Assembly: GCA_030741355.1 (NCBI GenBank)
Contig: JASLVM010000015.1
Span: 1-32,655, forward strand
Direction: 5' to 3'
From: Candidatus Poseidonia sp.
Lineage (GTDB): Archaea > Thermoplasmatota > Poseidoniia > Poseidoniales > Poseidoniaceae
Length of the DNA: 32,655 nt
Part shown: piece after piece, positions 1-32,471 of the stretch
How positions within the stretch are numbered: the stretch's first letter is position 1
Layout of the letters: each line of letters starts with the position of its first letter
Notes under the pieces: model-generated
What the model was told of the DNA's origin: nothing
Database searches by the model: none
Seen by the model: the letters and a program-made list of their open reading frames with translations, nothing else
Translations under genes and position numbers: made by a program

Positions 1-398
1 ACGTGATCGGTGACATCAAGATAGGCCTCGTCGATGCTCGCTTTTTCAAACAGGTCGGCCACCTCATTGAGAACCGACATCACTTTTCGACTCGCCCTGC
101 TGTACAATCCCCGTGTTCCACGAATGTAGATGGCCGGTCCAAAAGGGGTGGCAGGGCACCGACGCCAAGCCTCAGAAACCGGCATCGCTGAACGGATGCC
201 ATAAGCCCTGGCCGCATAGTTACAGGTTGAAACAATTCCACGGCCACGGCCCTGTTTCGGGTCCGAACCAATGATGAGAGGAACGTTGTCATCAAACCCG
301 TGATGCAGGGTTTCAACCGCAGCAAAGAAAGCATCCAAATCGCAATGGATGATGATCCTTGGACCATCTTTACCATGACCGCTACCTTCCTCCACCAC
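1..398 (-). CDS. dinB: Y-family DNA polymerase (DNA polymerase IV / DinB), N-terminal part, truncated by window edge
   Basis: Minus-strand reading from GTG at 398 (or 395) gives VVEEGSGHGKDGPRIIIHCDLDAFFAAVETLHHGFDDNVPLIIGSDPKQGRGRGIVSTCNYAARAYGIRSAMPVSEAWRRCPATPFGPAIYIRGTRGLYSRASRKVMSVLNEVADLFEKASIDEAYLDVTDH. Classic DinB motifs DLDAFFAAVE, CNYAARAYGIRSAMP and SIDEAYLD are present. Not in the supplied ORF track because the frame runs off the edge. Confidence 0.95.
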   Translation of the reverse strand, partial: MVEEGSGHGKDGPRIIIHCDLDAFFAAVETLHHGFDDNVPLIIGSDPKQGRGRGIVSTCNYAARAYGIRSAMPVSEAWRRCPATPFGPAIYIRGTRGLYSRASRKVMSVLNEVADLFEKASIDEAYLDVTDH

Positions 399-506
399 GC
401 ATCACCAACGTCGCCAGAGGTGTTTGAACTTGATGTGCAGGTTCAGTTCAACCAAGGGGTCTTCACAAGGATAGATGACCTCATTCACCGACCTTCAATG
501 ATTCAT

Positions 507-1283
507 ATGAGGCATCAACAAACAACGGATCACCTCGAAACCGGTGTAATTCAGCGGCAGCGAGGCATTGACCCCAGCGCTCTCCAACCTGTACGGGGTC
601 AACTCTACCATCTGAGCGGGCCCGGGCGTGCAGGGAAGAGCATGCGATGCGTTGCTGAACATTGGGTCGCTCATGCATTGGCTCAGGGAGAAGTGGTCCA
701 TTGGGTGGATGGTGCCTGCCGAATTGACCCATCTCGATTCATCCCCCGTTTGGAAATGTTGGGAGTGGACGTGGAAGCCTGCCTCGCACGATTGTACTTG
801 AGTCGGGGATTCACCCTTCACCAGTTGGACCGACAAATTGAGCGACTGCCCCACGAACTTGCCATCACGCGCGCACCCATGGTCGTGATTGACGGTTTGC
901 TTGCCATGCACGGCGATGACGCCGTCTCAAGACTCGAATCCAGAACCCTGTTACGGAGACATGTGGGTATTTTGCGGCAACTTTCGGGCCAGCATCACGC
1001 CGCCGTCATCGCCATAACGGGTTCATCTTCTTCGCCACACGTTGACCCACGATTGCTTCAACACCTTCATCGCCACGCGCAAAATCATCTGAAGGGTTCA
1101 TGGAACGGAGGACGAAGACGAAGAAGGCTGTACCTTCGGCATGTTCGCTCGGGACTTCGAGGACATTGGCGGCCCTTCGAAAGCCCTGCTCAAACACACT
1201 TTCGTCTCACAGAACGAAAATTCAATCGGTGGACAGTTCATCCATCGGTTGGTGTCCTGACCCTTCAGCATCAGGACGAGTAA
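507..1283 (+). CDS. RecA/RadA-superfamily P-loop ATPase (RadB/ImuA-like), start at ATG 498 or 507
   Basis: Walker A LSGPGRAGKS, Walker B-like APMVVIDGLLAM, overall RecA-core length. The ORF track starts at 300, but that part is antisense to dinB, so a start at 498/507 is more likely. Confidence 0.75.
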   Translation: MRHQQTTDHLETGVIQRQRGIDPSALQPVRGQLYHLSGPGRAGKSMRCVAEHWVAHALAQGEVVHWVDGACRIDPSRFIPRLEMLGVDVEACLARLYLSRGFTLHQLDRQIERLPHELAITRAPMVVIDGLLAMHGDDAVSRLESRTLLRRHVGILRQLSGQHHAAVIAITGSSSSPHVDPRLLQHLHRHAQNHLKGSWNGGRRRRRLYLRHVRSGLRGHWRPFESPAQTHFRLTERKFNRWTVHPSVGVLTLQHQDE

Positions 1284-3729
1284 ATTCCAGGAGACTCGGT
1301 TGTCGACCGTCCTGCCGAAGACGTTCGGTGGTCCAACCGAATGGAGCAAGAAGAGCCCAAATCGCTCGCTCGGCAAGTTCACCATAGTGAATCTTGCATC
1401 CGGAGAGGGAGCCTTTGGAAGTCTCGATTTCTTCGGCTAAACGAACTCGCTGCAGGGGTTCGGTTGACGACTTATCCACGACGGTGTATCGCACCTTTCC
1501 ACCCGGCGGAACAACATAGCCCCGTTCATGCGCCCGCATGAGCGCTGCATACGTCAAATTCTTCACCCGGTAATTGGCCAAGTCTTGAGTGGTTCTTCGT
1601 GTGATGACAAGGTCCACGAGTGGAACATCCCCTGCGTCCAACCGACGAAGTTCACTCCGGAGGTGGTTCAGCACCGACCGTTGAGTCGCAAGCGAAGGGA
1701 GACCTTTGGTGCGGTTACCCTCCGCTAGAATCTCCAAACCTTTCCGTTGCAATTCTCTCACCCAACGGGGTGTAGAATGCTGTCGCAATTCAATCCCTCG
1801 AACCTTGAAATCCTCGCCCGTGTAGGCCCAATATTTCGTCAAGGAACCCGAACCGTGCATCCTGCTCGGGAGAAACGCAATGAAATCGTAGTGAGCCTCA
1901 AACTCCAGTGGAATACCAACATGTTCGGAAATGCGTTCAGCAAAAGCCTCGGCCGCTGTGCGCTGCTGTTCAGGAGAACGACCTCTCGTATCGGAGAGCC
2001 AAACACAATCCACGATGGCATGAAGCACATCCCATCCATCTTCTTGAGCGGTTTCAATCGTGCTCAACAAAAGGTCCCGAGACCATGCGCAGATGGCTTC
2101 GTGAGCCTCGATGCGACCAAAACGAGCATTGCGGTAACCGGTGTATCCAAAACACGTCACAAGCAGCCATTTCAAGGCGTTTTGTCGCAAATCGTAGGCA
2201 TCCCCTTTGTGTTGCCGCAGACCTTTCAAAACCCGTCTTCGCTCAATGATGGGAGCGACCACACGTCCAAGGAATCCGTGCGTTCGGCCGCAGGTATGCA
2301 TGTTGAGACCTGGTACAGGGAGCGCCTTTTCGTTAGCAAGTGGAAAGAGACCATGGCCGAACCTCGACATGACGGTTCGTTCCCGAAACTCCTGCGCAGC
2401 TTCACGAGGATGCAAGGGCACCACGCCATGTTCCGAGGCGGAGGGAGGAGCTTGGCAACAGGAACAGTTGAGCGTCTCAGGAGAAATATTACGTGTGGCA
2501 ATGATGCTGGGAAAGAGACTCGCAAAGTCAAGTTCAATCACGGAAGCGTGGACGCCTGGGCGGCTGTCCAGATACAAACCACCTCGATCCGCATGAAGAA
2601 GGTCCAGCGCCGATTTGGTGTCTTCCGGACGATTTTTCTTCCACGGCACCAAGACCCCGTCATCCATGGCCACCCGCATTTGTATAGCGCTGATGACCGA
2701 ACCTGGAGAAAGACGAGAGATGACCTGTGCTGATTGACGAGAATGTTGTGCCAGTTCAAACAGGCCTGCGAGCCCACCTTCGTTGACGATGAAGCTGTTT
2801 TTCACGTCAAGGTGAAGGCGACCCTTGAGGAAGAAAGCACCGTGCCGGTGTCGTGTTTGTCCGTAGGAATGAATGGTGCGTTGGCCGGTCGATTGACGCA
2901 ACGGCTCTGAAGTTCGCCCGAGAACAAGTGGGAAGTGGTGTGCCTTGGTCTGTTCAACCAACCATGGAAACCAGCGTTGGTCGCCACCTGCGGTCAACAC
3001 GATGTCAGGGTCTATTCTGTCAAAAGCCGTTTGAAAAGCGCTGAGAAGGGATGACAGTGAATCGAATTCACGGCGTTCAAGCGTGCACAATGTCGTCTTT
3101 TGGGAAGGGGAAATCCCCGGCTCTTGAACGGTTTCCAGCCAAATCCGTTCAACAACATCCCCTTGCTCGGGAAAACCTCCACGCTGCTCAAATTCAAGAG
3201 CGAGACGAACAACATGAAACGGGGGATACATGTCATCGCCGGTCAAGGGTTCAGGCACCGGTTCAAGATGAGACGGATGTGAAGGACTCCAACGCACCCG
3301 TTGAAACGGCATGCAAGCGTGTTCATTTAGAAATCGTTGAGCCAGATGAGCGTCGACCGAGTAGAGTTTGTACCGATGAAAATCTCCCCTTGCTTCGATG
3401 TGTTCTGCAAGCGCCCGGAGGTGTTGGTAAGAGCGAAGGGTGATGGTAAGAACTTCAGATTGCCCTTCTGCCTCCAAATCCAAACGCGCTCGCGTGGAAA
3501 AGATGGTTCCAATGCCAAAACGCTGATGCAATTCGGGTTGATTCAACCAGTGCTCCAAACGATCAAGCCAACGGTGTGAGGCGTGAACATGAAGCACAGG
3601 TTGCCAAGGAAGGATACACCCGTGGGCCTCGCCTTGGTCGTCAACAATCCATGCCACCATACCGTTACGTGTTTCGTTCTCGTGAACATCCAACAACCAT
3701 CCTTCAATCATGTCGATGCCGTTCCTCAA
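1222..3729 (-). CDS. Divergent family B DNA polymerase (PolB2-like; degraded exonuclease motifs, altered motif C)
   Basis: Motif A ELDFASLFPSII; motif B KWLLVTCFGYTGYRNARFGRIEAHEAI; motif C position reads VLHAIVDCVWLSD instead of YGDTDSVF; exonuclease regions read RLALEFEQRG and LTAGGDQRWFPWL. Confidence 0.9.
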   Translation of the reverse strand: MRNGIDMIEGWLLDVHENETRNGMVAWIVDDQGEAHGCILPWQPVLHVHASHRWLDRLEHWLNQPELHQRFGIGTIFSTRARLDLEAEGQSEVLTITLRSYQHLRALAEHIEARGDFHRYKLYSVDAHLAQRFLNEHACMPFQRVRWSPSHPSHLEPVPEPLTGDDMYPPFHVVRLALEFEQRGGFPEQGDVVERIWLETVQEPGISPSQKTTLCTLERREFDSLSSLLSAFQTAFDRIDPDIVLTAGGDQRWFPWLVEQTKAHHFPLVLGRTSEPLRQSTGQRTIHSYGQTRHRHGAFFLKGRLHLDVKNSFIVNEGGLAGLFELAQHSRQSAQVISRLSPGSVISAIQMRVAMDDGVLVPWKKNRPEDTKSALDLLHADRGGLYLDSRPGVHASVIELDFASLFPSIIATRNISPETLNCSCCQAPPSASEHGVVPLHPREAAQEFRERTVMSRFGHGLFPLANEKALPVPGLNMHTCGRTHGFLGRVVAPIIERRRVLKGLRQHKGDAYDLRQNALKWLLVTCFGYTGYRNARFGRIEAHEAICAWSRDLLLSTIETAQEDGWDVLHAIVDCVWLSDTRGRSPEQQRTAAEAFAERISEHVGIPLEFEAHYDFIAFLPSRMHGSGSLTKYWAYTGEDFKVRGIELRQHSTPRWVRELQRKGLEILAEGNRTKGLPSLATQRSVLNHLRSELRRLDAGDVPLVDLVITRRTTQDLANYRVKNLTYAALMRAHERGYVVPPGGKVRYTVVDKSSTEPLQRVRLAEEIETSKGSLSGCKIHYGELAERAIWALLAPFGWTTERLRQDGRQPSLLEFTRPDAEGSGHQPMDELSTD

Positions 3730-3973
3730 GCGCTTGTACTCGTTCTGAAAGTTGGTTGATTTGCACCATCAAGCCAACCATCATGCTGAGAACCGTAGGC
3801 TGCCAGGTGTTCACCGCTGGAAGCATACCGCCCGCCGCACGTCGCTCCCGCACCGCATCCAAAAGCGCATCAAAAGCGGCGCAGTCAACGGATGAAAGGG
3901 CCCGACGGTAAGGCGCTAAATGCTGCAATTCATGTTCTACACGCGTTCGCCATGGCGGCACACTTCGACCCAT
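3704..3973 (-). CDS. Small helical/coiled-coil protein (89 aa), overlaps the polB start
   Basis: ORF of 89 aa immediately upstream of and overlapping the PolB ORF by 26 bp; C-terminal heptad-like LMVQINQLSERVQALEERHRHD. Confidence 0.65.
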   Translation of the reverse strand: MGRSVPPWRTRVEHELQHLAPYRRALSSVDCAAFDALLDAVRERRAAGGMLPAVNTWQPTVLSMMVGLMVQINQLSERVQALEERHRHD

Positions 3974-4037
3974 ACCCCCACGAGACTCAAGGCGGAAGGG
4001 ATGCTTATTGCAGACCCAGTTGTTGAAAGTGAAAGTG

Positions 4038-5021
4038 CTACAAGAAGGCCTTGTTCACAACGAAATCACAAGGTCGGTCATCAAGCGCATCCATCACGTT
4101 GGTGGCGATGTCCATGCCGACCCGACCTTGAGCCTCCACCGTGGATGCACCAATGTGGGGCGTTCCATGGAAATGTTCCATCTGAAGAAGCGGGTGGTCG
4201 GGGTCAACAGGCTCGTTTTCAAACACATCCAGAGCGGCCGAGGTGAGCGTGCCCGATTCGAGGGCTTGGAGAACAGCGTCTTCATCGACGATACCTCCCC
4301 TCGCACAATTGACGATGTGACTGCCACAGCGTGAACCGTCCTTCCCAATGTGCGGCATGGAGGCCAAGCGTTCGGCGTTGACAAGGTGGTGAGTTTCCTC
4401 GGTCAAATTGCAGTGAATCGAGATGTGGGTGCAGTTGGAGAACAACGATTCGAGGGTTTTGTGGAGGCGAGTGCCTTGTGATTTCGCAACTTTTGGAGGG
4501 AGGTAGGGGTCGTAGGCATGAATTTCCATCCCGATGGCTTGTGCCACGCGGCCGACCGATTGCGCAATTCGTCCAAAACCAATGAGACCGAGCGCTTTAC
4601 CAGAGAGTTCTGAACCCTTCATGGCCTTCTTTTCCCACTTCCCATCTCGGAGACTTCGATCGGACCGAGGAAGATGACGAATGGATGCCAACAAGTGACC
4701 CAAGGTCAGTTCAACAACCGATTGGGTACTGGCCCGAGGAGCGTTGACCACCTTGATGCCCTTGGACCCAGCCGTCATGAGATCGATGTTGTCAACGCCA
4801 ACACCTGCCCGTCCGATCACCTTCAATCGGTCGCCCGATGCTTCCAACACTTCTTTGGTGAGTTTCGTGGCGCTTCGGACGATGATGGCGTCGAAAGATT
4901 CCAAAGCACCGTTGAGCAATTCATCTTTCTCGAGGTGCTTGACAACGACATCATGACCTGCTTTTTCGAGACGTGCGACCGCCTTTTCATCCATCCCGTC
5001 CGTGACGGCAATCGTTGCCAT
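4038..5021 (-). CDS. serA: D-3-phosphoglycerate dehydrogenase-like D-2-hydroxyacid dehydrogenase (short form, no ACT domain)
   Basis: MATIAVTDGMDEKAV start; GRAGVGVDNID, GLIGFGRIAQSVGRVAQAIGM (Rossmann), NCARGGIVDEDAV, LDVFENEP, TPHIGAST. The longer ORF to 5180 looks like an upstream extension. Confidence 0.9.
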   Translation of the reverse strand: MATIAVTDGMDEKAVARLEKAGHDVVVKHLEKDELLNGALESFDAIIVRSATKLTKEVLEASGDRLKVIGRAGVGVDNIDLMTAGSKGIKVVNAPRASTQSVVELTLGHLLASIRHLPRSDRSLRDGKWEKKAMKGSELSGKALGLIGFGRIAQSVGRVAQAIGMEIHAYDPYLPPKVAKSQGTRLHKTLESLFSNCTHISIHCNLTEETHHLVNAERLASMPHIGKDGSRCGSHIVNCARGGIVDEDAVLQALESGTLTSAALDVFENEPVDPDHPLLQMEHFHGTPHIGASTVEAQGRVGMDIATNVMDALDDRPCDFVVNKAFL

Positions 5022-24108: not shown

Positions 24109-27100
24109 ATGATGTCCAGCGGGTCTCAAGTAACTACCCGGCGAACCGTCGCTTCATCGCTGATGGTTTTGCTCATGTTGGGCGTCTTGTTCAACCCACT
24201 GATTCACCCCCCGTTACTTCCTGAAACCGACGTCGTTCAACCCACGCCTGGCAGCTGGGCAGGAGACGGCCAACCCTGGGCGCAATATGCCAAAACCCCG
24301 ACGCACAATCAAACCGTGCCTGAACACGGCGTGGACGGTGGCCCCGGAGAAGGCAGTCTTGCCAACATAACGAGCTTGGGCACGCTCGAGAACCCAGTGG
24401 TGAATTGGCAGGTCTTTTCGGGACAGTCCGAAAGCGATGCTTACGGTTCGATCATCGGTGATTTCTCTGCGAGCATCAGCGCATCGGAGGCTGCCCTTGA
24501 GCGATGTGGCGCAGGGACATTGTTCCCCGTCATGATCTCCAGCGAGATCACCGATGGTTCACGGGAGAGTTTTCTCAACATTGTTTCGGGCAACGACGCT
24601 AAGATCGCTTGGAAGGTCAGCCTTGGCGTTACCGAAGCCATTCGATCCACACCGATGATTCACGACATTGACGGCGATGGGCAACAAGAAATCATCGTGG
24701 TGTACGATACTCAGGGGGCCCTCAACATCGATGTTTGGTCGCCACAACTCACCTGCACCGAATCAAACTGGCAAGCCACAGGACACAGCAATGAACTCCT
24801 GTGGTCCTACAGCGATGCTGAGGTCCGTATTGGCTCGCCATCCCCCCATTTCGCTACAGCGAACAGTGACCACAAAGCAGTCACACAGCCACTTCTCGCA
24901 GACTTGGAATTGGATGGCACGCCTGAACTGGTCATCGCCGTGGTCGACGACCCCGACAACAACCCGTTGGTGAAGGTCAACGCCTATTCATTGACCTCAT
25001 CCCAGCCAACCCAAGAGGACTGGACCGTTTCATTGGACCGAGGAACGCATCCCTCCGACCCGGTATGGGCGCAACTGGATAGCAGCACGACTTCGGTCCT
25101 CCTCACGACCATTGATGGAGATTCGGGGAACATGTGGATATGGAAAATCGATGGCTCCACCGGCTCCTTGGATTGGGAACGCGTGGCCGTTCAAGGAACC
25201 GACACCGATTCCGATTCTCCTCGGCTTCGACTCCCGGGGCCGATCATCGTTCAACTTGACCAAGACAGCGCACCCGAGATGATTCTCACCGTACCCACCG
25301 ACGCCAACGGACGTCAATCTGGCAACGGTGCTCGCTTTATTGGCATGGAATTAACCTCAACCACGGAACTCTTCAATTTCCGAGCGCAGAACGGCTACGC
25401 AGACGCTCAGCCGTTGGCCCTTGACACCGATGAAGATGGTGTAGACGACCGATTGTGTTGGGTCACATGGTATTCAGAGTCGTCGGTTAGTTTCAACCGA
25501 AAAGGCATGCTTGGTTGCACCGACATCTCCGATAACTCGCCCGTCACGGAATGGACTCGAGACCTCCAGCGTGGAGCAGGAAACGACAATGACGAAATTG
25601 CTGCATCCCCTCCATTCTGGCTGGACATTGACGGAGAAGGGACTCCCGAGATTTTGGTTGGTTTCGGGCGTCGCTTCTGGGCCTTTGATGGAGACACGGG
25701 GGCCTCGGCCGACATCAACAGCGCATGGTCAACGCCATTGAGCATGCCGCACCGTGTGTGGACGGCACCTGCCATCGCTGATGTGGACGGTGATGGGCAC
25801 ATCGACGTCCTTTACGGCGACACCTTGGTGTCGGACCAGGGACCGGATTTGTCCCCTTCGTTTGACGGACGTGGACTCTCTTTCAATCCCGCCCAAGCCG
25901 ACCCGGGCATGACGGTCACCGTAACTGGCCAATTTGCCAACATTGGAACCGGCGAGGCGGACGAAGACATTGATGCAGCCATCATCATGAACGGCGAGGA
26001 ATTGACGAGGGAGCGATTTACATCCAGTGAGCCGGTTGCACCATCTGGAGAAGGAGGCCCGCTCACGTTTTCTGCAGAGTTTGTCGCAACCCTCGGCGTT
26101 CATGCGTTTGAACTCGTGCTTGACGTTAACGAGAACATTACGGAACAACGGGAAGACAACAACGATGCGAGCACCACCTTCACCGTTGTCGAGCCGTATC
26201 TCGCCCAAATGACCGGGCCGCTTGAGACCCCTCGAATCCCACCCGGCTCAACCCAGCAAGTCATGGTTGAGTTGGTCGCCACTGGCTCTCGCACGGCCGA
26301 CTGGACACTTTCCTACGATGAGAGTGCCCTTCCTTCAGGGTGGTCATTTTCACCAGCAGGGAACCAAGACCTCACCCTTGAATTGATTCCAGACACACCA
26401 CAAACGGTGATCTTTGACGCCCATGTGCCGTCCACAGCCCTTGGTGATGAATCCGGTATGGTCTCGATGCTACTGGCCCTCGATGACGATGACACGATCA
26501 ACAGCACCATCGATGTCCAAATCGATGTGTTCCGAACCCGTGGGCTTGACCTCTCCGGCTCAACCGGAATGAACATCTCAACCGCACATGGACGACCGGG
26601 CCACACTGCAAAGGCGTGGTTCATGGTGGAAAACCTCGGAAACGCTGCTGAATCAACAACTTCCATCACGTGGACGGCACCGTCATGGGGTGGCTCGCCA
26701 TCCATCCACGACACTAACGGACAGGAACTCTTCAGCATTTCACTTGCTCCTGGCGAGTCAAAGGTTCTGTTCGCTCACCTAACCACACCAGCATCCGTGA
26801 GTTATGGTAGTTCGACACAAACCACGCTCACCCTCTGCATGGGCAGCGGAGAGGATGCACTCTGCGAATCCATGCCGTTCACTTTTACAGCTCAGAAATT
26901 TGTCGCCGAACCCACCCATCACCGCTCGCTTCCAGACGCGACCCTAACATGGTCGTTCACTGGCACGGCCCCGGCATCAGGGAGTGCTGAGTGGAGCATG
27001 AGTTCCATGGGCATGCTCCAACAGGGTTGGGTATGGTCGGCAACGGGTGATTTCACCATCAACGGCACACAACTCGTCGCACAGGGCACATCAGGCGGTG

Positions 27101-29850
27101 TCGTGAGCGGTGACCTGGTCCTCCAACTTCCACCCAATGCCGTTCCGAATCGCCATGCTTTTGCGGAGACGGATGGCGTTGATGTCGATGCTTCGCTGAA
27201 CATCAGCCTCCATGTTTTGCAGGTCTACCGAGCAAACCTCAACGTGATTGAACCACTCCCGGAAACGGTCGGTGAACCCCTCTCACTGAATGTTTCCGAG
27301 CCCCAAAGATTCCTTCTGTTCTTGGAAAACCCTGGAAACGGCGTGGACACCTTCCAACTCGCTGCAACTGCATCATCCATTGACGGTTCATTTACGCCGG
27401 ATGTTGCCTTCACCTATTTCGACCCTCAGAAAACCCTCGGGGCACTCGCCACAGGTATTGGCACCGTGGACGTCATCCTCTCAGAAGAAACACCGGCTCA
27501 GACGCCGTTTGATCTTGTCTTCACATGGACCTCACTCGGAGGAGATGTGGTGGATTCGACCACCCTTGTTGTGCAAGCTGCACCAAGTCACGAGTGGACG
27601 GTATCCCCAACCAACGACACCCAAGTCTCAGGGCAGCCAGGAGAAACCCTTTCCTTTGCATTCAACGTCACGAACCTCGGAAATGCGGCTGACGATTTAA
27701 CCCTTGAACCATCGCTCAATGTCCTGCCTTTCGGCGAAGATACATCCGTTTGGGTGGCTTCATCAGTTCAAACAACGACCCTCCCCATCAACGATTCAGC
27801 CCTGCTGAATTTCTCCATCACCGTCCCTTCGATGGCCTGGGCGTCATCCTCCGTAAACATCACACTCAACCACGTGGCCAACGGCTACACCATCGGCCAA
27901 ACCCTTGTGTCAGTTGATGTCGAATCGGTATCGGGCTGGCGTTTGAACCTCACAGAAGCCGATTTAGAAGTAGACCCCACTGGAGAGAACCTCACCTTTG
28001 AACTGATTCACACTGGCAACGCCTACGAGCGACCGTACTTTGCCAAGGCGGGAGCAGGATGGAACATCACCCTACCCGATGACGCTGAAGATGTGGCCCC
28101 TTACGGAACAAGCACCTTCCAGGTCCATGTTCAGCCCCCTTCGAATGCCGTCGCAGGTGAAGTCGGTGTGCTGCGAATACGCATCACGGGCAACGACACC
28201 AGCGGCTTGGTGGTTGAAGAAATCCCGGTCCGCGTGGGTGCATCGCCCGACATCCTCGTGGACCATCGAGGGACGTGGTACATCAACGCTGAAGGTGGCT
28301 ACCCCACCGCCTGGATCGAGAACAACGGCAACGATATCGCCATGCTCACGGTGGACGTTGACGGGCTTCCGGATGGCTGGTCAACCACCCAAGGCACGCA
28401 AGTCATTCTCGCCCCGGGTGAGGTCACCGGTGTCCCGATGACACTCCTCCCTGCCTCGTCATGGAACGAACAGAGATTTTTGTTGACCATCAATGTCAAC
28501 CACCCTCTTCTCGGTATCATCGCCCACAACATTGAGGTAGAATACAGCCAGGTGGTGTTTACCCAAAGCCCGGTGTTCGATGCGTTTGAAGGGACCATGC
28601 AGGACCTCTCCTATGAGGTGGATAACGGCGAGACGGCAACCTTTGGTGGTTCACTTTCAGTGGCACAAGGCGACAATGAACTCTCGTTTGAGCAACCCGA
28701 CACCACGGGAGAGCACTTGATCAGTTTCCAAACCTCCAACACCTCTGGAAATCTCTCGGTGTATGTGGTTTCACGAACGTATCCAGACACCGATATCTCT
28801 TGCGAGTTTGAAGACGATGTATTCGCGTCCTTGGGCCAATCGGCGGCAGAAGGCATCTTGGCCACCTGTACCCTAACGGCAGGCGTTGACGAATCCATGC
28901 GCGTGGTGTTCACGCTGGTCTCATCGACCGGTGAGCGTGTGGATCTCGAGGAGGACGTCTTCATCGTGCCAGCAGGTGGGCAAGAAAGCGTCAATGTGAG
29001 TCTTGATTCGTGGGATCCAGAAGCAGGAATGTTCTCCGTAGAACTGCGTGCTCATGACCGCTACGGACGGGAATTGGAAAGCATATCAGAATCGGTCATC
29101 GCTCGTGAGAGCGGCTGGAACGTCGGGATCAGTTCTCTAACAGCAGATGGAGACATCACCATTGGCATCCAACGAACCGGCTACAGTTTACTCGCCAACG
29201 CCGTGTGTGAGTTGGACGTGCAAGCAGAAGGTGGCTGGTCGACCACTTACATCGTTGACATCGCCTACGCAGAATACGCACCTGTCATCTTCATTGAAAA
29301 TCCAAACAGCATTGAGCGTGATGAGAAGATCACCGCCAACCTTGCTTGTAGCGTACCGTTTGATATCGACGACAACCCCGAAGATGACACCCGCAGCACC
29401 TACTACAAGTCAGAAGGCTTGCTGACGGTCTCATCCAATGAGATTGGTTGGGTTGTCGGCGTTGCTGCCCTTGTTCTGGCAGTAGCATGGTTGGTGGGCG
29501 CCATACAATCTCCAAAACCAAAGGCAGCGAAAACTCCCACGGCCGGCCGGGAAACCTCTGCCCCAACCATCAATGAAAACTCAACACCAGCCAGTCCAGC
29601 ACCAGAGGACGATATGCAACTTCAACCGGTGGAAGAACCTGAAGAGGAATCCGAACTCTTCGTGGAAGAGGACATCGTTGAATCCACCATAGAAGTGATT
29701 GAAACGGTTGAAGGGACCGATACCGAACCTACGAACACCACCGCCAGTGGTCGTCTGGCAAGTCTTCGAGAAGAAATTGTAACCGACGACACACCCCAGC
29801 GAGAGGGAACGATGGAAGACCGAATGAAGAAATTCTTTGGAAACGAGTGA
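24109..29850 (+). CDS. Giant cell-surface protein: FG-GAP-like N-terminus, CARDB domain, tandem Ig-like/NEW3-like repeats, C-terminal TM and acidic tail
   Basis: N-terminal hydrophobic signal (VASSLMVLLMLGVLFNPLIHPPLLP), repeated DxDGDGxxEIxV-type motifs, CARDB-like PGMTVTVTGQFANIGTGEADE...LDVNENITEQREDNN, recurrent NLGNAA/NPGNGVD/NNGNDI motifs, TM IGWVVGVAALVLAVAWLVGAI, acidic tail. Confidence 0.88.
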   Translation: MMSSGSQVTTRRTVASSLMVLLMLGVLFNPLIHPPLLPETDVVQPTPGSWAGDGQPWAQYAKTPTHNQTVPEHGVDGGPGEGSLANITSLGTLENPVVNWQVFSGQSESDAYGSIIGDFSASISASEAALERCGAGTLFPVMISSEITDGSRESFLNIVSGNDAKIAWKVSLGVTEAIRSTPMIHDIDGDGQQEIIVVYDTQGALNIDVWSPQLTCTESNWQATGHSNELLWSYSDAEVRIGSPSPHFATANSDHKAVTQPLLADLELDGTPELVIAVVDDPDNNPLVKVNAYSLTSSQPTQEDWTVSLDRGTHPSDPVWAQLDSSTTSVLLTTIDGDSGNMWIWKIDGSTGSLDWERVAVQGTDTDSDSPRLRLPGPIIVQLDQDSAPEMILTVPTDANGRQSGNGARFIGMELTSTTELFNFRAQNGYADAQPLALDTDEDGVDDRLCWVTWYSESSVSFNRKGMLGCTDISDNSPVTEWTRDLQRGAGNDNDEIAASPPFWLDIDGEGTPEILVGFGRRFWAFDGDTGASADINSAWSTPLSMPHRVWTAPAIADVDGDGHIDVLYGDTLVSDQGPDLSPSFDGRGLSFNPAQADPGMTVTVTGQFANIGTGEADEDIDAAIIMNGEELTRERFTSSEPVAPSGEGGPLTFSAEFVATLGVHAFELVLDVNENITEQREDNNDASTTFTVVEPYLAQMTGPLETPRIPPGSTQQVMVELVATGSRTADWTLSYDESALPSGWSFSPAGNQDLTLELIPDTPQTVIFDAHVPSTALGDESGMVSMLLALDDDDTINSTIDVQIDVFRTRGLDLSGSTGMNISTAHGRPGHTAKAWFMVENLGNAAESTTSITWTAPSWGGSPSIHDTNGQELFSISLAPGESKVLFAHLTTPASVSYGSSTQTTLTLCMGSGEDALCESMPFTFTAQKFVAEPTHHRSLPDATLTWSFTGTAPASGSAEWSMSSMGMLQQGWVWSATGDFTINGTQLVAQGTSGGVVSGDLVLQLPPNAVPNRHAFAETDGVDVDASLNISLHVLQVYRANLNVIEPLPETVGEPLSLNVSEPQRFLLFLENPGNGVDTFQLAATASSIDGSFTPDVAFTYFDPQKTLGALATGIGTVDVILSEETPAQTPFDLVFTWTSLGGDVVDSTTLVVQAAPSHEWTVSPTNDTQVSGQPGETLSFAFNVTNLGNAADDLTLEPSLNVLPFGEDTSVWVASSVQTTTLPINDSALLNFSITVPSMAWASSSVNITLNHVANGYTIGQTLVSVDVESVSGWRLNLTEADLEVDPTGENLTFELIHTGNAYERPYFAKAGAGWNITLPDDAEDVAPYGTSTFQVHVQPPSNAVAGEVGVLRIRITGNDTSGLVVEEIPVRVGASPDILVDHRGTWYINAEGGYPTAWIENNGNDIAMLTVDVDGLPDGWSTTQGTQVILAPGEVTGVPMTLLPASSWNEQRFLLTINVNHPLLGIIAHNIEVEYSQVVFTQSPVFDAFEGTMQDLSYEVDNGETATFGGSLSVAQGDNELSFEQPDTTGEHLISFQTSNTSGNLSVYVVSRTYPDTDISCEFEDDVFASLGQSAAEGILATCTLTAGVDESMRVVFTLVSSTGERVDLEEDVFIVPAGGQESVNVSLDSWDPEAGMFSVELRAHDRYGRELESISESVIARESGWNVGISSLTADGDITIGIQRTGYSLLANAVCELDVQAEGGWSTTYIVDIAYAEYAPVIFIENPNSIERDEKITANLACSVPFDIDDNPEDDTRSTYYKSEGLLTVSSNEIGWVVGVAALVLAVAWLVGAIQSPKPKAAKTPTAGRETSAPTINENSTPASPAPEDDMQLQPVEEPEEESELFVEEDIVESTIEVIETVEGTDTEPTNTTASGRLASLREEIVTDDTPQREGTMEDRMKKFFGNE

Positions 29851-32342: not shown

Positions 32343-32471
32343 AGAGGGGCACAGTGACTTCCTTTCCCGTGGACTCTCGTACCACAGTAATGGGAGAGAC
32401 GCAGAAGGGCTTGACTTCTGGGTTCGGAATGGGACCAGGTAAACACCTTCGCTGTGACCGTGCACCCATCT
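32343..32471 (-). rRNA. rrf: 5S ribosomal RNA (boundaries approximate)
   Basis: Minus strand GGGTGCACGGTCACAGCGAAGG...ACCTGGTCCCATTCCGAACCCAGAAGTCAAGCCCTTC...GTCACTGTGCCCC; helix I pairs the two ends. Confidence 0.92.

Follow-up and report, generated by a model that had tools for sequence, protein, structure and literature searches.

A probable PolB2 mutasome of Poseidoniales with a convergent iRadA gene and a promoter element in common with radA

Which system is encoded by the first 4 kb of contig JASLVM010000015.1 from Candidatus Poseidonia sp., where the genes for a Y-family DNA polymerase (dinB), a RecA-like protein, a divergent B-family DNA polymerase and an 89-aa protein lie side by side? 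The stretch analysed here comprises 32,655 nucleotides of this contig (GenBank assembly GCA_030741355.1) and is referred to as the window. An initial annotation, made from the letters of the window, had interpreted the four genes as a new archaeal analogue of the bacterial imuA-imuB-dnaE2 cassettes. All four open reading frames (ORFs) are real, and the neighbourhood survey that this annotation had proposed revealed that three of them form a core that is conserved throughout the order Poseidoniales. The arrangement of the window genes was found again in 60 further genomes and is therefore not due to chance. The mutasome interpretation holds insofar as a PolB2-type enzyme is combined with a RecA-family partner; it does not hold as a new imuAB-dnaE2 analogue, since the locus is very probably the Poseidoniales form of an already published system, the PolB2 mutasome, which consists of PolB2, PPB2 and iRadA. 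The coordinates of the features are given in Table 1.

Makarova et al. (2014, PMC4104785) described an operon in which PolB2 is joined by an inactivated RadA and by a helical protein of ~90 aa (arCOG07300), whereas the names iRadA and PPB2, as well as a modelled PolB2:iRadA:PPB2(3) mutasome, go back to Timinskas et al. (2025, PMC11791011). All three components of the Poseidoniales locus are alike to the published ones by homology and by signature residues. With profiles built from the Poseidoniales proteins, all three components were also detected in the canonical operons that other Thermoplasmatota have, so that the membership rests on homology, beyond motifs alone. An earlier report of PolB2 in Poseidoniales was not found in open PMC papers. 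With respect to the divergent PolB and the helical 89-aa protein, the initial annotation was confirmed. Among the NCBIfam models, PolB2 fits those for archaeal type-B polymerases (4e-118). Within the 60 aligned rows, the first Asp of motif C is always replaced (IVD). This IVD, the DRGG and the motif A Asp, which agree with the PolB2 type (I/V-I/V-D in motif C, a D(K/R) motif, motif A Asp kept), are present in the window and in all 60 rows, barring one ambiguous residue; three residues do not vary in this alignment, namely the Asp of motif A, the Lys of motif B and the second Asp of motif C. The exonuclease region is weak. Near the C-terminus there is a PIP-like sequence, QPSLLEFT, which suggests that PolB2 may bind PCNA; a PIP-like motif, as known from the published mutasome, is present in part of the Poseidoniales loci. 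In PPB2, the residues M1, G2, R3, W8 and R9 are invariant among 42 sequences (signature MGR[ST], Arg3, Arg9), and the protein is helical according to an AlphaFold2 model (pLDDT 90). A Foldseek search with PPB2 yielded no significant match, whereby the top TM-scores include sigma-factor N-terminal domains, a likeness that had been found earlier with Dali (PMC11791011).

The RecA-like protein had been annotated as a RecA/RadA-superfamily ATPase, of which the superfamily could be verified but not the activity. Its predicted fold matches the Rad51/RadA core (Foldseek E ~5e-12; 5qul, TM 0.76 by target length), and its scores for Rad51, DMC1 and RadB are weak and far below the cut-offs (Pfam, NCBIfam). 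The N-terminal domain of RadA is missing. In the window, the P-loop GPGRAGKS is kept, but an active ATPase is unsupported because the catalytic Glu is replaced by Ala (VHWVDGA). Overall, Ala, Gly or Val occupies the position of the catalytic Glu in 60 out of 60 cases, whereas the P-loop GxxxxGK[ST] is kept in just 14 and lost in 46 and is thus not generally constrained; its Lys has been lost repeatedly, even inside Poseidonia. An active RecA-like ATPase, as deduced from the intact P-loop, was therefore rejected. The protein is not the RadA recombinase either, since the one ordinary RadA of the genome is encoded on another contig (C99) and the window protein matches the RadA family as a second, weak hit. 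RadB, which the initial annotation had named as the alternative that would speak against its interpretation, was likewise rejected on account of a score of 17.8 bits against a family cut-off of 172 and of the Ala at the Glu position.

Compared to the published mutasome, the Poseidoniales form differs in the orientation of iRadA. The three mutasome genes were reported to share their orientation "in most cases" (PMC11791011), and in other Thermoplasmatota we found the co-directional order iRadA>PPB2>PolB2, in one case iRadA>PolB2>PPB2. In Poseidoniales, PPB2, PolB2 and iRadA are adjacent in every locus, and the order PPB2>PolB2><iRadA is present in 60 loci from sampled genomes of the order, a few of which are broken or cut by a contig end. 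In most of these loci the 3' ends of PolB2 and iRadA overlap by up to ~220 bp (62 bp in the window), and in the window the start of polB2 also overlaps the end of PPB2. A second, named collection includes 76 loci with iRadA, and in each of them the gene lies on the opposite strand, as it does in all Poseidoniales loci. The two collections share genomes, many genomes are incomplete, and due to shared ancestry the genome counts do not represent independent events. The convergent iRadA throughout Poseidoniales is new relative to the published order. Further differences from the published mutasome are the dinB neighbour in Poseidoniaceae, the promoter element in common with radA, and the window neighbourhood, where no orc1/cdc6 gene was seen; an SRAP neighbour, present in some relatives, is in turn a feature in common with the published system.

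Both cassette promoters have a tandem element, TTCACTTTCACTTTCA, in common, which is located ~62-66 nt upstream of the ATG. Upstream of PPB2, a form of TTCACTTTCACTTTCA is present in nearly all loci, mostly 60-79 nt before the ATG, and the exact sequence CASTTTCASTTTCA occurs once in the own genome, namely at PPB2. The composite pattern TTCASTTN{0,1}CAN{4,8}GGGTS is found exactly twice in the 1.97-Mb genome, in front of PPB2 (4013-4033, minus strand) and in front of iRadA (442-461, plus strand), and the reversed pattern yielded zero matches in the genome. These statements on genome-wide rarity rest on pattern searches, and since the composite was formulated after both sites had been seen, what is informative is that it is rare elsewhere. 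Cassettes of other Thermoplasmatota showed no consistent promoter feature, and no earlier report of the element was found in open PMC papers. Element matches inside long ORFs (window position 28650; contigs C50 and C37 of the own genome, G000) were treated as chance; the first of them reaches 17.6 bits within a 1913-aa ORF (24109-29850, plus strand) and is probably a chance match.

In order to score further promoters, a matrix trained solely on PPB2 sites was used with a threshold of 10 bits. The radA promoters reach at least 10 bits in 16 of 16 Poseidoniaceae and 21 of 22 Thalassarchaeaceae (37/38 in total), while in most control gene families 0-3% of the promoters do so, in shuffled sequences 2-5%, and in the small control family c14 one out of 12. 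High scores were also obtained for all 41 BPL promoters with usable sequence, where the element lies 61-68 nt before the start. BPL is a conserved protein of 165-205 aa with a weak beta-propeller resemblance, which occurs in most Poseidoniaceae and some Thalassarchaeaceae. A gene for a 58-aa protein (MPHVLTQVEHALCWTVFAPLVR...), which is easily overlooked by gene callers, is likewise preceded by the element, at 64-65 nt from the ATG, in five genomes (the own one among them), and in several cassette-free genomes of genus g2 a related element is located ~62 nt before the dinB start. BPL has the element in genomes without PolB2 as well, and the cassette therefore appears to join a regulon that existed before. 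In the radA promoters of several genomes (e.g., L129:2310-2346, L227, L231, L250) two element copies face each other at a distance of ~20 nt, in contrast to other promoters, where one tandem copy is present. In L469 and L477 (Thalassarchaeaceae, genus g16), two related ORFs of <100 aa lie downstream of strong element copies and may represent a further regulon member.

The element contains two A(N)TTTC hexamers (A[CG]TTTC). In Sulfolobales, where orc1-2 is controlled by its own product, a damage-response element A(N)TTTC is bound by Orc1-2 (PMC5817253, PMC9738581). Both elements are located ahead of damage-tolerance genes, with the hexamer occurring twice in the Poseidoniales element, and Poseidoniales genomes have two Orc1 paralogues. 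In contrast, the Poseidoniales element is tandem, longer and much rarer, and the orc1 genes are without it. As the hexamer is short, the likeness could be coincidence. Because of the company of radA and the two hexamers, the radA-centred regulon is probably damage-inducible. We see an even chance that TTCACTTTCACTTTCA marks an SOS-like DNA-damage regulon, which would comprise radA, BPL, the 58-aa protein and the PolB2 mutasome with its two converging transcripts, plus dinB in genomes where it adjoins, and whose operator would be related to Sulfolobales A(N)TTTC, pointing to a damage-response code that is common to distant archaea. Three observations weigh against the main reading, a mutasome complex that is expressed within such a regulon. 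The iRadA sites are weaker, with about half of them reaching 10 bits, often because one T is missing. The element is found at neither of the two orc1/cdc6 genes per genome, which were therefore rejected as regulon members. Finally, a convergent overlap is an odd way to make two subunits of one complex. It might also be that the element is an ordinary promoter feature, or that it serves a response other than to damage (growth, light), so that there would be no SOS-like regulon. The fixed spacing of ~62-66 nt between element and ATG would suit a part of the core promoter. However, the element is absent in most control promoters and nearly unique in the genome, it precedes a coherent set of genes (radA, the PolB2 mutasome and, in some genomes, dinB), and before radA it occurs reversed or in two copies, which does not resemble a core promoter part, and we thus regard this explanation as rather unlikely.

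DinB had been counted as a component of the cassette in the initial annotation. Its motifs are intact, as had been stated, with DLDAFF and SIDEAY present in the visible 132 aa (Pfam IMS PF00817, 4.5e-27) and both kept in the full-length orthologues of relatives. A four-component mutasome with DinB as an obligate subunit, like ImuA-ImuB-DnaE2, would agree with the fact that DinB adjoins the cassette in 31 of the sampled Poseidoniaceae genomes and in 35 of the 80 loci of the second collection, and with its divergent orientation relative to iRadA, with the promoter element between the two genes. Counted by locus in the first collection, DinB adjoins the cassette in 28 loci besides the window, all of them in Poseidoniaceae. 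However, in ~20 Thalassarchaeaceae with PolB2 no DinB was found, five Thalassarchaeaceae with DinB have no PolB2, and among Poseidoniaceae 26 genomes have DinB without PolB2 and 8 have both, but apart. In most Poseidoniaceae the cassette is a unit of ~3.5 kb between dinB and serA, whereas in cassette-free genomes, many of which show the empty site, dinB and serA are usually 5-70 bp apart. As dinB and serA adjoin each other without the cassette, the linkage of DinB equals that of serA, which is the right border of the insertion site and outside the system, and this is hardly what is expected of a subunit. A mutasome with obligate DinB is thus very unlikely; DinB is a fixed neighbour and not a core subunit. 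Nor does the locus belong to the ImuA-ImuB-DnaE2 systems, since its polymerase is of the B-family rather than a C-family DnaE2, and DinB is not constant. In one sublineage, which spans several genera, the cassette is located elsewhere and, judged from the tree, has moved as a unit. Away from dinB, the cassette was seen beside SRAP (L066, L067, L069, L070, L075), whose enrichment near polB2 had already been noted (PMC11791011), or beside a photolyase-like gene (L055-L058, L084, L088). The DinB of cassette-free genus g2 genomes carries an in-frame N-terminal extension of ~50 aa, which is similar between genomes and mostly accompanied by an element-like promoter (L093, L095, L096, L097, L102, L105, L106, L107, L132); a cassette remnant was rejected as its origin because there is no similarity to cassette proteins.

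Taken as the PolB2 mutasome, the locus is best understood as a translesion-synthesis module that probably lies inside a radA-centred regulon. By analogy with relatives, PolB2 would act in translesion synthesis, assisted by the accessory subunits iRadA and PPB2, and the three proteins would assemble in Poseidonia as in the published models. PolB2 would be the catalytic, proofreading-deficient extender polymerase, iRadA, as a dead RadA paralogue, would dock on it in the way a RadA protomer would, and a PPB2 trimer would insert one of its N-terminal arms (MGR[ST]) in the vicinity of the active site. With iRadA inverted, two transcripts that converge and overlap, PPB2-polB2 and iRadA, would together encode the complex, and a copy of one promoter element precedes each of them. 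Since the element is also present before radA, BPL and the 58-aa gene, mutasome and recombinase are probably expressed together as parts of an SOS-like regulon. DinB, which is divergent from iRadA in most Poseidoniaceae cassettes and would share the promoter region, could supply the inserter step and hand off to PolB2. In vitro, PolB2 extends the product inserted by the Y-family enzyme Dpo4 in abasic-site bypass (PMC8721586), and in Sulfolobus dpo2 is damage-inducible and required for targeted mutagenesis (PMC11791011, PMC7390963). Poseidoniales resemble the Sulfolobus Dpo2/Dpo4 pair in that a B-family extender and a Y-family enzyme occur in one cell, here even as gene neighbours, and differ in that the cassette can be present where DinB is absent and in that the hand-off is proposed by analogy. 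That PolB2 and iRadA are instead inactivated and serve replication as structural or regulatory proteins, with no part in synthesis (Rogozin 2008; Makarova 2014), would be in line with the replaced motif C Asp, the weak exonuclease region and the missing catalytic Glu of iRadA, but is highly improbable in view of the three invariant polymerase residues and of the Sulfolobus PolB2, which has IID and is active and an extender (PMC11791011, PMC8764526).

The bacterial mutasomes Pol V (UmuD'2C-RecA) and ImuA-ImuB-DnaE2 are alike in that a bypass polymerase has a RecA-family partner and in that the gene set includes the recombinase, whereby the regulon part of this likeness is putative for Poseidoniales. 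They are not homologous as systems. Here, the catalytic subunit is of the B-family, PPB2 stands in place of UmuD', the RadA paralogue is inactive, there is no LexA, and the Y-family neighbour is not obligatory.

Table 1. Positions of the cassette genes, promoter element copies and related features (window coordinates unless a contig is named).
Feature	Position	Strand	Remarks
dinB, Y-family DNA polymerase	3..398	-	N-terminal 132 aa visible, truncated by contig end; PF00817, 4.5e-27
iRadA-side promoter element copy	436..461	+	TTCAGTTCAACCAAGGGGTC at 442-461; divergent dinB/iRadA intergenic region; 62 nt upstream of ATG 498; 10.6 bits
iRadA, catalytically inactive RadA paralogue, 261 aa	498..1283	+	P-loop GPGRAGKS kept; catalytic Glu replaced by Ala
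polB2, B-family DNA polymerase, ~829 aa from ATG 3711	1222..3711	-	motif C IVD, DRGG, PIP-like QPSLLEFT
PPB2 (arCOG07300), 89-aa helical partner of PolB2	3704..3973	-	N-terminus MGRSVPPWR
PPB2-polB2 promoter element AGCACTTTCACTTTCAACAACTGGGTC	4013..4039	-	16-mer starts 66 nt upstream of PPB2 ATG; 23.1 bits, top score in window
serA-type 2-hydroxyacid dehydrogenase	4038..5018	-	PF02826/PF00389; longest ORF reaches 5180
BPL, own copy	G000:C116:2982-3461	+	L253; orthologues L193-L222, L254-L265
58-aa gene element	G000:C116, 50342		L467; others L454, L457, L458, L155

For polB2, an alternative start at TTG 3729 is possible, and the ORF of iRadA (stop at 1283, plus strand) most likely starts at 498 rather than at 300. 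A 5S rRNA gene is located near the end of the window (32346-32465, minus strand). A defence system was rejected, as PADLOC gave no relevant match.

The archaea of Marine Group II inhabit the sunlit surface ocean, where they rank with the most abundant archaea. A description of their DNA-damage response was not found in open PMC papers. In the reading given here, the recombinase gene and a mutagenic polymerase complex are connected by one rare promoter element, and this names a small regulon, which includes two genes of no assigned function (BPL and the 58-aa gene). Should the operator be akin to that of Sulfolobales, a common archaeal SOS-like response would become directly testable.

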